Virus record (IMG/VR): IMGVR_UViG_3300036651_001444 | Coordinates: 1 to 21,110 of that record | DNA length: 21,110 nucleotides | Source of the DNA: a virus | Reading direction: 5' to 3' (one strand) | Shown: piece after piece, positions 9,332-17,223 of the stretch | Numbering within the stretch: position 1 is the first letter of the stretch | Layout of the letters: each line of letters starts with the position of its first letter | Made by a program: the position numbers and the translations under genes | Notes under the pieces: generated by a model | Databases searched by the model: none | Told to the model about the DNA's origin: nothing | What the model saw: only the letters and a program-made list of their open reading frames with translations

Positions 9332-10636
9332 CTAGCCTCCCATGTATGGCTGATAGGCCGCGTGCCGGCGCTCGCCGCCCGTCGCTGGCTTGCCGTGGCC
9401 CATCTTCTTGAGCAGTTCCGCCAAGAGCCACCACGCGCCGCTCGTGGCGTCTACCTGGTCGTCGTGCAACTTCGGCGTCGGGAACGGCTCAAGCTCGTTC
9501 CAGTACTCGTTGTTCCAGGGGGCAGCGACGCAATCGACGTTCTTCGCCGCCATCGCCGAGGAGACGACCAGGCTGCGCGTCACCTTATCGCCGGTCGGAT
9601 GGTTGCCCCACACGCTGATACCGAGCGGTTGGAGTTTCTGCTGCCAGGTGTAGATGTCGGACTTGCCGGCCGAGCCACCTTCCTGCTCGATGCCGACGAC
9701 GACGCCGCGGCCGTCGGCGATCGTGGTGTCGAGAATGCGCCGTTCGACGATCGCCGGGTTGCCGCGGAAGCGTTGTACATCCTCGATCACCCAGCGCCGG
9801 CCGGTGAACGCGACGCGCACGCCCGCCGTCCAGTCGGGATCGGAACCCGGCCCTTCGTCGGTCGCGGCCTTGTCCCAGTAGCGCACCCGCAGCGCCCGCT
9901 CCGGACCCTGCCCGACCCGCTCGCACCAGTTCCGGTCGAACAGGTTGCCTTTGAGCACCGTGTCCCAGTCGCCGTAGCGCAGTTGGCGTCTCGTTACCGG
10001 ATCGAGTTCGTCGAGCGATTCTTCGTAGCTGGCGGCGTCGAGCGAGGGGTTATCCTCAAGCCGCGCCGGCACGAACGCGCGCCCTTTCGACGGTCCTTCG
10101 ACGAGGAAGCGATCCTTCACCCACTCATGGCCGAAGCCACCGGGGTTGGAGCCGGCGCGCATCCGCAGCCGTACGTTGGCCGAGGCGAGACGGCGCAGGC
10201 GCGATCCCATGTACGTGTACTGGCCGCGCGAGAAGTGGGTCAGCTCGTCGAAGCCGATGAACTGAAACTCGCTGCTCTGGTAGCGATACTTATCCGCCTC
10301 GTTGTTGAGGTAGGAGAAGCTGAGCGTCGCGCCGGTGCGGGGGAACGTCCAGCGATGATCGTTGCCGTTCCAGTGCGCCTGTGTGCCGGAGAGCCATTCT
10401 TTCGAGCGGGTTTCGAGCGAGCCAGGTAGCTTGAGGTCGGTGAACGTCTTACGGAACAGGATCGCGTTGTAGCCGGGGACGAGATGCACGAACTGCAGCG
10501 CGCACATCAAGAGCCAGTCGGACTTGCCGCCACCAGCAGCGCCGCCGTACAACGCCTCACGGTTGGGCAGCGCCAGGGCTGCCCACTGCGGCGGGTGCGG
10601 TAGGTGCGGGATGTAGGGGTTCTCAAGCACCGTCAC
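9332..10636 (-). CDS. terL: Terminase large subunit, ATPase and nuclease (434 aa)
   Basis: TerL is the packaging motor: an N-terminal ATPase translocates DNA through the portal and a C-terminal RNase-H-like nuclease cuts concatemers. Numbering here is from the GTG at 10636. Walker A is GGAAGGGKSD (31-40) and Walker B is FIGFDE (126-131). Candidate metal-binding nuclease residues are D255 (RYWDKAATD), E317 (VVGIEQEGG) and the HDDQVDA motif (391-397). The GTG start has GGAGAG upstream and overlaps TerS by only 14 nt. An ATG at 10708 would add 24 residues and a long overlap. The segment from LENPYIPHLPHPPQ through ALYGGAAGGGKSD is typical of siphophage terminases. Confidence 0.95.
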   Translation of the reverse strand: MTVLENPYIPHLPHPPQWAALALPNREALYGGAAGGGKSDWLLMCALQFVHLVPGYNAILFRKTFTDLKLPGSLETRSKEWLSGTQAHWNGNDHRWTFPRTGATLSFSYLNNEADKYRYQSSEFQFIGFDELTHFSRGQYTYMGSRLRRLASANVRLRMRAGSNPGGFGHEWVKDRFLVEGPSKGRAFVPARLEDNPSLDAASYEESLDELDPVTRRQLRYGDWDTVLKGNLFDRNWCERVGQGPERALRVRYWDKAATDEGPGSDPDWTAGVRVAFTGRRWVIEDVQRFRGNPAIVERRILDTTIADGRGVVVGIEQEGGSAGKSDIYTWQQKLQPLGISVWGNHPTGDKVTRSLVVSSAMAAKNVDCVAAPWNNEYWNELEPFPTPKLHDDQVDATSGAWWLLAELLKKMGHGKPATGGERRHAAYQPYMGG

Positions 10637-11114
10637 CCGGAGGAAGCTCTCCACTGCCTCCCGTGATCTGTCGGGCGTGAGCCTCGATAGCGTTCCAGTC
10701 GAAATCATAGTTATGCACCACGTTCACATCGACGTTCGTCTGCGTCTGGATCGGCGGGCCGTCCTCCGTGCCGGAATGGTCGATCCGCTGCCGCTGGCCG
10801 TAGTCGCGGTTGAAGCGCCGTTCGAGAATCCAGGAGGAGGCGAAGACGACGTTCTTCGGGTCTTTCGACGCCTCTTCGAGCCGCATCAGATGGCGCATGG
10901 CGCAGCGCGCTTCGGCCTCCTCGATCGCGATGGCGAACTCGGGGTGCCGGTCGCGCCAGTTGATAAAGGTCTGCTCATGGATACCGCCGTAGGCCGCGGC
11001 CAGTCGGTGCGTCGCGCCCAGCGCCAGCGCGTCGCAGATACGCTTCGCCCGCTCTGGTTCGTACTTCGTCGCGCCGGGTCGTTTCTTGCCGCGCTTTGCC
11101 GGGAGAGCAGCCAT
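10623..11114 (-). CDS. terS: Terminase small subunit-like DNA-binding protein (163 aa)
   Basis: TerS binds the packaging site and hands DNA to TerL. The protein has a basic N-terminus (KRGKKRPGATKYEPERAKR). A helix-turn-helix-like region follows (ICDALALGATHRLAAAYGG, then EQTFINWRDRHPEF), then a helical oligomerisation segment (AIAIEEAEARCAMRHLMRLEE) and an acidic C-terminus. This order and the overlap with TerL support the call. The ATG at 11112-11114 is chosen because AAAGG lies about 9 nt upstream. The frame extends to 11189, but that extension crosses the divergent promoter region. Confidence 0.85.
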   Translation of the reverse strand: MAALPAKRGKKRPGATKYEPERAKRICDALALGATHRLAAAYGGIHEQTFINWRDRHPEFAIAIEEAEARCAMRHLMRLEEASKDPKNVVFASSWILERRFNRDYGQRQRIDHSGTEDGPPIQTQTNVDVNVVHNYDFDWNAIEAHARQITGGSGELPPGDGA

Positions 11115-11148
11115 CGTGCGTTGCCTTTCGATCCTTTCGAGCAGCCTC

Positions 11149-11178
11149 TTTACAGTCTCATAGCCTATGAGATATAGT
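11149..11178 (+). promoter_or_regulatory. Promoter with perfect 15-bp palindrome in its spacer
   Basis: TTTACA at 11149-11154 and TATAGT at 11173-11178 are separated by 18 nt and point at the plus-strand gene at 11209. The spacer and its edges contain CTCATAG-c-CTATGAG (11157-11171), a perfect inverted repeat with 7-bp arms. An operator inside the RNA-polymerase footprint is the classic arrangement for repression. On the minus strand a weaker TTGATA with TAGGCT at 16 nt could serve TerS, so the site may control both directions. Confidence 0.6.
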
Positions 11179-11180
11179 AG

Positions 11181-11198
11181 GCATATCAACGGGGCGAA
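11181..11198 (-). promoter_or_regulatory. Recurrent TTCGCC element, copy F, before TerS
   Basis: It reads TTCGCCCCGTTGATATGC on the minus strand, about 78 nt before the TerS start. It differs from copy A mainly by one extra C. It overlaps the ribosome-binding site of the plus-strand gene, so a protein bound here could affect both genes. Confidence 0.35.
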
Positions 11199-11405: not shown

Positions 11406-13088
11406 TCATACCGGCATCTCCTCAGCATCCGCGCCACCGAAGCCATCGGGTACGGTCACCTCGACCGGCCCACACGCTTCGGTGGCGCGCTTCGGATCGC
11501 CCTTAATGAAGGTGTAGACCTGCTGATGCGTCTTGCCGAGTTTGCGCCCGCTGCTGAACTGCCGGCCGACGCGGATGCTCAAACTGCCCACGGCAGTGAC
11601 CAGGATCGCCTCGTTGTAGAGCGCAAGCCCCGCGTCGGCGAAGGCGGCGATCGTCGCGGCCGGCAGATTGCGGTAGATGCCCTTGCGGTCGCGCACATCG
11701 CCGATCACGACACAGGCGAAGCGGTCGTCCGCGAGCCGATCGCAGGCCGCGGCGATGATCGCGCGGTAGGCAGCGAGAAAGGCATCGTAGGGCATGCCCG
11801 AGAGGTCGCGGGGATCGTCCGAGTAGACCTCAAGATCGGCGTAGGGCGGGCAGGTAAAGAGCAGATCGAACGGCGGGTAGGCGGCGAGCGTCGGCACGAT
11901 CTCAGCGGCATCGCCGGGCAGCCAGCGCGGACGGTTGTCGGGCGTGATGTCCGCCGCCTGATCTTCGTTGGCGGCAAGCTGGCGGGCGGAAAGGTCGATG
12001 CCGGTGTAGTTGCGCCCGAGCAGCGCCGCGACGATGCCGCGCACCGAGCCGCCCGCGAAGGGATCGAGGACGTGCCCGGTCGGCGGGCAGAACCAGCGGT
12101 ACGCCAGTTCGCACAGGACGGGATCGAAGATGCTCGTGCCTGATGCCATATTTGCGGTGCCCGTCCCCGCCTTTGCCCAATCAGGCAAAGGCGGGGCATT
12201 GTTTACGTTGCTACGCATGTCCGCTGCGTGCCGGGAACTGCCCACCGTATGCTCGCCGCGCATCAGGTCCTGCCCGGACCTTTGGGCAAGACCTGATGCG
12301 TAATGGCTGCGGGCCTGCTCGGCTTCTCCGAGCAGGCCGTTCCCTTTGCCGTCGCCCCGTCGCGTCTTGCCATCCGGACCCAGGCGACTCGCCGCGTCCC
12401 GCGAGCCGCCTGGGGATGCGCCATAGCCACGCTGGTACGCACCGTCCTGAGACGCCGGACGGTGCGTACCATTCGGCACAATGCCGTCGCCGCGCCCTAG
12501 TTCGCTTTGGATGCCGAGCGCCAGCCAGGCGCGTTTGCGCTCCTGCCAGTAGCCCTGACGCGCATCGAGCACCGAGAACGGTGGCACGATGAACCGTTCG
12601 GCCAAAGGCGCTGAGGGCGCGAGCGTGGGTGCAAGATCGGGCGCTTCGACGCTGTAGGGATCGAGATCGACGGCCCGTGCCGCAATCGCATCGATCGCCG
12701 CATCCAAATTGCTATCGAGGGCGCGCAGGTTCTCCCCGATCCGCTCCATCTGCTGCCGGTCGTAGAGCGCCAACAGCGTGATCGCGTCGTAGGAGTCGAG
12801 CACGCCCGCCTCAAGCGCGGGGTCGATGCTGCAATGCAGCACCGGCAACTGCGACTGCCCAGCCTCGCAGGCTGCTTTGATCCGCGCATGGCCGTCGAGC
12901 ACGTAGCCGGTCTGGTCGTTGACCAACACCGCGCCTAAGACGCCGAAGGCGCGCATCGCCGACGCCAGCGCCGACATCTGCGTGCGCGGGTGGATCTTCG
13001 GGTTCTCCGGGTTGAAGGTGAGCGATTCGGGGTCGTCGAACGAGAGATGCGTGATCGCGACCGCGTACGGCTCTGTCTTTGGCGTCAT
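11406..13088 (-). CDS. ParB-like domain fused to a DNA amino-methyltransferase (560 aa)
   Basis: Residues about 15-90 resemble the ParB/sulfiredoxin-like nuclease fold, with the motif GYVLDGHARIKAA (61-73). Residues 164-200 carry ERFIVPPFSVLDARQGYW and an RKRAWLALGI segment, seen in phage proteins of this kind (from memory). A polar Gly/Arg/Ser-rich linker spans about 200-312. The methyltransferase domain has motif I LDPFAGGS (341-348) and the catalytic CPPY (413-416). This predicts an N6-adenine or N4-cytosine enzyme. The later segments YNEAILVTAVGSL and RKLGKTHQQVYTFIKGD complete the fold. It probably modifies phage DNA against host restriction; its target is unknown. The linker DNA contains five strong inverted repeats. 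No clear ribosome-binding site precedes the ATG. Confidence 0.85.
   Translation of the reverse strand: MTPKTEPYAVAITHLSFDDPESLTFNPENPKIHPRTQMSALASAMRAFGVLGAVLVNDQTGYVLDGHARIKAACEAGQSQLPVLHCSIDPALEAGVLDSYDAITLLALYDRQQMERIGENLRALDSNLDAAIDAIAARAVDLDPYSVEAPDLAPTLAPSAPLAERFIVPPFSVLDARQGYWQERKRAWLALGIQSELGRGDGIVPNGTHRPASQDGAYQRGYGASPGGSRDAASRLGPDGKTRRGDGKGNGLLGEAEQARSHYASGLAQRSGQDLMRGEHTVGSSRHAADMRSNVNNAPPLPDWAKAGTGTANMASGTSIFDPVLCELAYRWFCPPTGHVLDPFAGGSVRGIVAALLGRNYTGIDLSARQLAANEDQAADITPDNRPRWLPGDAAEIVPTLAAYPPFDLLFTCPPYADLEVYSDDPRDLSGMPYDAFLAAYRAIIAAACDRLADDRFACVVIGDVRDRKGIYRNLPAATIAAFADAGLALYNEAILVTAVGSLSIRVGRQFSSGRKLGKTHQQVYTFIKGDPKRATEACGPVEVTVPDGFGGADAEEMPV
12165..12471. repeat. Cluster of five sequence-distinct inverted repeats inside the methyltransferase linker
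   Basis: The stems are: 12165-12177 with 12184-12196 (13 bp perfect, 6-nt loop); 12259-12269 with 12290-12300 (11 bp perfect, continuing after one mismatch for 5 bp, 8-nt loop); 12312-12322 with 12328-12338 (11 bp perfect, 5-nt loop); 12379-12386 with 12407-12414 (8 bp, one mismatch, 5 bp, 8-nt loop); 12433-12447 with 12457-12471 (15 bp perfect, 9-nt loop). Arm sequences differ, so this is not a simple dispersed repeat. A 5-bp CGGCA-caa-TGCCG stem follows at 12474-12486. The reading frame stays open throughout. Confidence 0.9.
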
Positions 13089-16023: not shown

Positions 16024-17223
16024 TTACGGGTTGGTCGGCTGCACGTAGCCGGGATGCCCCGCGAGGCAGACTTTCCAGATGTCGTAGAGCGCCAGCACGC
16101 GCGCCAGCCCCGCCGCCGTGCCGGTTTTCGCGGCCGTGTACATCTCTTTGCCCGTGTCAGCCGTGAGACAGCCCGGCTCGTCGAGCGTCTGCTGCGGCGC
16201 GGTGTCCGTGTGTTGCGTCGTGAGCGCCGTGACCGCGCCGGTATCGACCGCGAGTTGATCCGCGGTGTGCGTCGGCAGCAGCGACCAGACCCACGCGCCG
16301 GCGTAGCCCGCGCTGTACCAGTGCTGCCAGCGCGCGGAGGCGGCGGGGCTTGCCGACTGCGGTGTCGCCGGGAACTCGCCCAAGACCAGCGGCGCATCGA
16401 GGGCATAGCGCGCCTTCACGGTCGCGTAGTCCCAGAGATAGGCGTCGTAGTTGCCCTGATTCATGTAGTCGTACCAGTGCGCCTCGTAGTAATCGAGGCC
16501 CAGGCCGACCCAGAGCGGCAACCCGTCGAGCATCACGGAGCCGACCGTGACGTAGGCTGAGGAATTGGCGTGGATGGCTGCGGCGATGTTTTTGACCGAC
16601 GCCTGGACCGACGCCTGATCGATGCGGCCGGCCCAGATATCGACCTCCGGCTCGTTGTAGACCTCCCAGGTAAAAACGCGCGGGTTGCCGGCGTAGTGCG
16701 CGGCGAGGCTGCCGATCGTCGTCGCCAAGCCCGCAGCGGTGCCGGGGTCCGTCACCCAGTTCTGCGGGACCGCGGTCGGCGCGGAGAACAGCACGAAATC
16801 GAGGTAGATGTCGTACTGGTTGGCGACGGCGAGCGCCGCGTCGATGTCGGCGTAGGTCGTCCGCGTGATCTGCGTCGGCACGCCTGCGTTGTCGGTGGCG
16901 ATATCCTGCGAAGCTGCCGACCCCTCAAACAGCCACCAGCGGATGACGTGCATCCCGGCAGCCTTCGCCGTAGCAAACGCCGCGCCGACGTTGGCAGCGA
17001 CGGTGGCGTTCGAGACACCAGAGGTCGCGGGGTTGCCGGTATCGCCGCAGCCGAAGTCGCAGCCCCAGTTGTACCAAGGCAGGTTCGCGCCGGTAAGAAA
17101 CGCCTGCTGGCCGTTGATCGTGATGCGCGTGCCCGAGAGCGCGCGGGCGGGGGCAGCGCGCTGCAGCGCCAGCCCGGCGCAGAGCAGCGCGAGGAGGCTG
17201 CCGAGCAGTAGACGACGGCGCAT
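16024..17223 (-). CDS. Exported GH5-like glycoside hydrolase (399 aa)
   Basis: The N-terminus is a Sec signal peptide: MRRR, a hydrophobic core LLLGSLLALLCAGLAL, then AAPARA before the likely cleavage site. The rest resembles a clan GH-A TIM barrel. Evidence is the early strand HVIRWWLFEG (92-101), the acid/base motif TWEVYNEPE with E191, an EAHWYDY loop near H249, and the nucleophile segment LVLGEFPAT with E283. This fits the cellulase/mannanase-type GH5 group; substrate cannot be told. AGGAGG lies 6 nt before the ATG. It is tightly packed between a lipoprotein gene and a virion-type gene. Phage depolymerases usually lack signal peptides, so an exported host-modifying enzyme is the alternative to a virion part. 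Confidence 0.75.
   Translation of the reverse strand: MRRRLLLGSLLALLCAGLALQRAAPARALSGTRITINGQQAFLTGANLPWYNWGCDFGCGDTGNPATSGVSNATVAANVGAAFATAKAAGMHVIRWWLFEGSAASQDIATDNAGVPTQITRTTYADIDAALAVANQYDIYLDFVLFSAPTAVPQNWVTDPGTAAGLATTIGSLAAHYAGNPRVFTWEVYNEPEVDIWAGRIDQASVQASVKNIAAAIHANSSAYVTVGSVMLDGLPLWVGLGLDYYEAHWYDYMNQGNYDAYLWDYATVKARYALDAPLVLGEFPATPQSASPAASARWQHWYSAGYAGAWVWSLLPTHTADQLAVDTGAVTALTTQHTDTAPQQTLDEPGCLTADTGKEMYTAAKTGTAAGLARVLALYDIWKVCLAGHPGYVQPTNP

Follow-up and report, generated by a model that had tools for sequence, protein, structure and literature searches.

We found that the linker of a phage ParB-methyltransferase gene carries a dense cluster of short coding palindromes, whose arms change together and whose loops are frequently inverted between relatives. 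The window (the whole 21,110-nucleotide stretch of viral DNA that was analysed) contains five of these hairpins. In our opinion, the coding palindromes are probably made and kept perfect by template switching in replication, and the unstructured linker tolerates the resulting amino acid changes. The hairpins would then be by-products that diversify the linker and not a functional RNA or DNA signal.

The gene encodes an N-terminal ParB-like domain followed by an N6/N4 methyltransferase domain, and it adjoins the terminase genes (Table 1). Its PHROG matches were to ParB-like nuclease and DNA methyltransferase families. This adjacency of ParB-methyltransferase and terminase genes is the known ParB-terminase locus, which is thought to direct modification during packaging (PMC6536676). 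The linker is bordered by the conserved anchors LGIQSELGRGD and GTSIFDPVLCE. An AlphaFold2 model based on 25 homologues gave pLDDT values below 50 for residues 197-318, and this is the hairpin region. Thus, the linker of about 120 residues that carries the hairpins is predicted to be unstructured, and the model agrees with the initial annotation, which had placed the hairpins between the ParB-like and methyltransferase domains. In addition, the 3′ end of the same gene contains a 14-bp inverted repeat without mismatches, whose arms are 32 nt apart (window 11430-11489). Elsewhere in the window, the minus strand of 16024-17223 encodes a secreted-looking protein with a weak match, below the cut-off, to glycosyl hydrolase family 5; such a protein is unusual among phage structural genes.

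Table 1. Features of the ParB-methyltransferase gene, its neighbours and the hairpins in the window
Feature	Position	Strand	Evidence
ParB-like and N6/N4 DNA methyltransferase fusion gene, 560 aa	11406..13088	(-)	ORF; PF01555 6e-8; PHROG families
Terminase small subunit (context, ParB-terminase locus)	10623..11189	(-)	PF20901 5e-7
Terminase large subunit (context)	9332..10708	(-)	PF17289 and PF03237
Hypervariable linker, residues about 197-318	12135..12500	(-)	pLDDT <50; word census, 172 distinct relatives
Hairpin 1 (mRNA order), 15-bp perfect arms, 9-nt loop, peptide NGTHRPASQDGAYQ	12433..12471	(-)	
Hairpin 2, 14-bp arms, one G.U (sense), 8-nt loop, word PGGSRDAASRLGPDG	12379..12414	(-)	
Hairpin 3, 11-bp perfect arms, 5-nt loop, word NGLLGEAEQARSHY	12312..12338	(-)	
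Hairpin 4, 17-bp arms, one G.U (sense), 8-nt loop AAAGGTCC, word GLAQRSGQDLMRGEH	12259..12300	(-)	
Hairpin 5, 13-bp perfect arms, 6-nt loop, word NNAPPLPDWAKAGTGT	12165..12196	(-)	

All five inverted repeats noticed in the initial annotation are present in the linker. The common architecture ascribed to two of them, hairpins 2 and 4, is also real: in each of them, a single mismatch is separated from the 8-nt loop by 5 bp, and it reads as G.U on the mRNA strand. The hairpins are far beyond chance, as had been supposed. In 2000 synonymous-codon permutations of the gene, the linker had 0.09 hairpins on average and 2 at most, and none of the permutations reached 5. By the same hairpin count, the remainder of the gene outside the linker had no hairpins. 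Furthermore, folding of single strands gave z-scores of -10.7 for the sense (mRNA) strand and -10.1 for the antisense strand.

The arm sequences had been described as all different. They are indeed unrelated to one another, but each of them belongs to or resembles a hairpin or peptide family that recurs in other phages. For instance, hairpin 1 is similar to the GTPADRQQAY hairpin of relative L039, and the word of hairpin 2 (PGGSRDAASRLGPDG) occurs with its hairpin in L002, L004, L005, L020, L031 and others. The word of hairpin 3 (NGLLGEAEQARSHY) is also found in L002, L009, L020, L021, L083 and L090, and its loop is inverted in L084. Meanwhile, L003 carries NNAPKKPDWASGTGT, comparable to the word of hairpin 5 (NNAPPLPDWAKAGTGT), with a hairpin of different sequence.

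To describe the family, we collected 172 distinct linkers from homologues in viral contigs and bacterial genomes; nearly all sequences compared were metagenome assemblies. With an arm score of at least 10, 72 hairpins were counted in the linkers (60 kb in total), compared with 2 in the methyltransferase bodies (119 kb). The 14 hairpin-bearing contigs had 49 hairpins within about 8.0 kb of linker (about 6 per kb). Outside the linker, the other 13 contigs had 11 hairpins in about 136 kb (about 0.08 per kb) when L105 was left out; this contig has 5 further hairpins inside its linker, which were counted as lying elsewhere since its anchor went unrecognised. This confirmed that hairpins in the linker are a property of the gene family and go beyond this window. 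The same hairpin families were found in independent samples and in a Chloroflexi MAG, and therefore an assembly artefact is an unlikely source of the hairpins.

The hairpins are nevertheless unevenly distributed, and 142 of the 172 linkers had none. Among linkers with both anchors, at least one hairpin was present in 12 of 27 fused genes and 10 of 83 split genes. The alphaproteobacterial relatives examined were mostly without hairpins, and no strong linker hairpins were found in the cultured phages that have the gene (Pam4, Mae-JY30 and R6L). When 400 genomes from the phylum to which L105 belongs were searched for a host, the only match was the genome of L105 itself, and a plasmid search gave three weak, partial matches.

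The linker is a string of short recurring peptides of variable order, and the hairpins sit on these words, such as PGGSPxxAATLxNGHTVRGDGKG, NGLLGESEQARSHY, ARTFGQDLMRGEHVVG and LTWVAGDRDEADLDETSRKNLAAG. The order is PGGS, NGLLGE and GQDLM in the window and NGLLGE, PGGS and GQDLM in L002. The hairpins fell into three codon-phase classes with 43, 31 and 1 members.

The loops are inverted in many cases. When hairpins with the same arms and differing loops were paired, 26 of the 53 pairs had loops that were exact reverse complements, while plain reverses and plain complements were both 0. Permutation of the loops gave 3.6 reverse complements as the expected number and at most 15 in 5000 trials; these pairs are not independent, and the SRKNLAA family supplies about half of them. 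Reverse-complement loops were seen in 11 hairpin families, ten through this test and the family listing and the eleventh in L008 and L032. Furthermore, the contigs L011 and L015, obtained from separate samples, differ within 4,673 bp at only two adjacent bases, GA in one and TC in the other, and this is exactly the inverted 2-nt loop. This loop flip is one recent event.

The window itself has such an inverted loop. The loop AAAGGTCC of hairpin 4 is the inversion of the canonical GGACCTTT (LARTFGQDLM), and inverting it changes GLAQRSGQDLM to GLARTFGQDLM. ARTF accounts for 98 of the 137 distinct GQDLM words, and nearly all the remaining ones are close variants. Five sequences have GQDLM loop peptides of the reverse-complement type (the window, L002, L009, L091 and L099), and all of these lie on hairpins; each of the loop peptides AQRS, ARSN, GRNS, AQTH and AQRH becomes R[TCV]F when inverted. 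The other non-canonical words ARTV, ARTY, KKFL and AAAF were single cases without the hairpin-inversion pattern. Thus, in the 26 of 53 pairs, in L011 and L015 and in the window loop, spacers have been inverted between unchanged arms.

The arms, in turn, change together. Among 12 hairpin sequences of the SRKNLAA word, both sides had changed in 10 of the 12 base pairs, with 20 double-change cells and 1 single-sided cell, and these values were attained in 0 of 500 shuffles. For example, CGC/GCG was replaced by AGA/TCT, and AAG/CTT by CGC/GCG. In the GQDLM word, the conserved peptide is encoded by the right arm, and the left arm tracks its synonymous changes, with the consequence that the left arm encodes differing amino acids (ASGLA, ALNPA or ASNPG). 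In addition, arm identity in 12-bp windows is bimodal in the linker, with a second peak of 19 cases at 12 pairs; none of the 12-bp windows in the methyltransferase body had 11 or 12 pairs. The stems are perfect or absent. Both the ratio of 20 to 1 and the bimodal identity show that arms are made identical via concerted multi-base changes.

Perfect arms, concerted changes and loop inversion are the signature of DNA polymerase template switching (PMC8604942, PMC8794818). In this process, the polymerase would briefly copy the opposite arm during DNA replication, and such copying would make the arms identical and could invert the loop. The linker, which is apparently unstructured and rapidly exchanged, would tolerate the resulting amino acid changes. 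We infer that template switching is the cause and not another strand-inverting process. The initial annotation had proposed that the hairpins reflect selection or else a dedicated mechanism that generates them, and that a linker might tolerate palindromes; the homogenised arms and inverted loops favour the side of a generating mechanism, whereas the specific roles that it named were unsupported.

However, a general replication error leaves two observations unexplained, namely the linker density of about 6 per kb against about 0.08 per kb in the same contigs, and the lack of hairpins in most relatives that have the same words. A general error mechanism acts everywhere, and therefore the confinement to one linker needs another factor. 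Candidates are the tolerance of a fast-changing unstructured segment, the inheritance of words that are nearly palindromic, and selection in favour of variability. A Bacillus cereus ParB-methylase is reported to nick DNA nonspecifically (PMC5512222), which allows that ParB nicking may be a local trigger of template switching.

Some linkers are also replaced outright. In L274 and L288, whose linkers have no strong hairpins, about 140 nt has been replaced, and the sequences flanking it are 96% and 97.5% identical; in L006, L011 and L042, the flanks are 78-92% identical and the linkers are different. Since flanks are alike where linkers have been replaced, linker turnover also occurs by replacement, beyond hairpin mutation. 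The segment that differs wholly between L274 and L288 lies directly before GTSIFDP in otherwise near-identical genes, and this suggests a cassette exchange of a specificity or interaction module. A comparable pattern was seen between L091 and L099, where 40 differences in 8,000 aligned bp all fall within about 225 bp; this block includes the GQDLM hairpin region, as if the linker alone had been exchanged.

Several relatives carry additional domains. In L083 (1139-3805) and L090 (246-2891), a pyridoxal-phosphate enzyme domain (PALP) lies inside the methyltransferase domain before the TCPPY motif, and the L083 insert matched a PHROG threonine dehydratase. An intein had been considered for the methyltransferase insert and was rejected, the insert of both L083 and L090 being this PLP-enzyme domain. 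A similar enzyme appears, as read by eye, to lie between the ParB and methyltransferase parts of L065, and in Pseudanabaena phage Pam4 the query matched a single 2.5-kb gene, which carries the annotation of a PLP enzyme. L091 (5852-7609) and L098 (3352-4944) have an insert of another kind, about 160-210 residues long, near the same methyltransferase position; in L098, it had a weak match, below the cut-off, to a CxxCxxCC zinc/iron-chelating family.

Selection on RNA could also produce paired changes. If the hairpins were selected as mRNA structures, for translation pausing between domains, for stability or as an RNA signal, the double changes would be compensatory evolution. The very stable fold of the sense strand, the covariation in the SRKNLAA word and the codon-phase bias are in keeping with this explanation. 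However, the antisense strand folds nearly equally, exact reverse-complement loops between homologues are not predicted, and the changes at 20 to 1 show no passage through G.U. Internal stem mismatches are few in total; on the mRNA strand they were 6 G.U, with both window mismatches included, and 0 A.C, and they weakly favour RNA-level selection as a possible contributing factor. L021 has an additional G.U mismatch, the terminal mismatches (7 vs 12) had no lean to G.U, and a decayed stem in L006 had one G.U and one A.C as read by eye. Thus, the search for compensatory changes had a mixed outcome, with strong covariation in the SRKNLAA word, but few G.U pairs overall and many unpaired homologues. 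The same linker peptides indeed occur without pairing, such as VSRKILAAG in L060 and ARTFGQDLM in about 100 relatives, and a Rfam search of the window had no match at the gathering score. These results speak against the structured RNA within the mRNA that had first been suggested, and we consider selection on RNA unlikely. It is less likely still that the hairpins act as DNA, in cruciform or single-stranded form, and are recognised by the packaging machinery, a recombinase or a nicking ParB domain so as to drive packaging or linker exchange. The gene adjoins the terminase genes, as in the known ParB-terminase locus (PMC6536676), the Bacillus cereus enzyme nicks nonspecifically (PMC5512222), and linkers are swapped between near-identical genes. 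Nevertheless, hairpins are absent from the majority of relatives in this locus, and the clearest linker swap, between L274 and L288, involves no strong hairpins. In addition, the sequence, number, order and presence of the hairpins vary freely, so the recognition array for packaging or recombination proposed at first is also unlikely. We found no positive support for an RNA or packaging role.

Another proposal of the initial annotation was palindromic insertion of the Rickettsia type, in which case the words would be small mobile elements that enter the coding DNA in frame. The same hairpin words do occur in varying order across phages, usually in one reading frame, and the hairpin sequence can be replaced at one position (L017 vs L025, before the YPTD word). 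However, across 2.9 million viral contigs, the exact NGLLGE hairpin pattern had 10 matching stretches and the SRKNLAA pattern 14, and the checked ones were all in this gene; copies in several different genes were not found for these two patterns. L084, which had been taken for a copy outside the gene, was the same gene on the other strand. The third, GQDLM-type pattern had four matches, and two of them (L305 and L306) were rejected as chance matches in unrelated DNA. Moreover, the arms stay perfect without decay, and about 100 relatives have the key word ARTFGQDLMRGEH without a hairpin. The two hairpin sequences searched thus contradict a palindrome that moves throughout the genome, and we regard mobile elements as highly improbable.

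An extension of template switching is that the linker is a built-in diversity generator. The hairpins would be kept since switching outpaces point mutation in flipping codons and remaking arms, so that a linker that affects the function of the ParB-methyltransferase would continually change. The changing linker would perhaps alter its target or partner choice, and the nicking ParB domain might start the switching. We think that this extension is rather improbable; if phages do maintain the hairpins in order to diversify the linker, this would be a new phage route to protein variation.

Template switching in coding DNA is already known from yeast and from nematomorph mitochondria. In yeast coding genes, arms are homogenised and spacers of 2-5 nt are inverted, which toggles codons such as GAA/TTC, and inversions occur only at arms over 9 bp (PMC8604942). 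Our hairpins are like these in being perfect inverted repeats in coding DNA whose arms are corrected in one step. However, the yeast cases are spread over 39 genes with about one repeat each, whereas the hairpins described here, up to 5 per linker, are packed into the linker of a single gene family that occurs in many phages. The palindromes of nematomorph mitochondrial genes, for which the authors favour a conversion mechanism, are likewise coding inverted repeats that are perfect or absent, with dynamic gain and loss and one disfavoured codon phase (PMC6649704). They reach 284 bp, occur in many genes and have both arms in conserved protein regions, whereas the arms here are 10-23 bp and confined to the unstructured linker, and loop inversion was shown. 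RNA hairpins, too, arise and are maintained through template switching, which also inverts their loops (PMC8794818). Compensatory changes of several bases and inverted loops are common to both; those hairpins are in RNA genes under structural selection, whereas ours are in a protein-coding linker without evidence of an RNA function. Rickettsia palindromic elements also lie within open reading frames, but they move among many genes, and their arms become less alike over time (summarised in PMC6649704), unlike the two searched hairpins, which are confined to one gene and keep perfect arms.

The gene has the same domain order and genomic place as the ParB-methyltransferase of phage ParB-terminase loci, and the accessible part of their description notes neither hairpins nor shuffling of linker words (PMC6536676). 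A keyword search of open-licence papers likewise gave no description of linker hairpins. Thus, a dense hotspot that is specific to one gene, lies in the linker of a phage protein and shows a flipped loop between near-identical phages appears to be undescribed. Strong covariation of paired bases is usually taken as proof of a functional RNA, and here it can accompany loop inversions, which points to a mutational cause. The linker is a small natural system in which the part played by template switching in protein evolution can be tested, since it has numerous independent hairpins, unambiguous loop flips, a recent event free of other differences, and hairpin-free relatives as controls.
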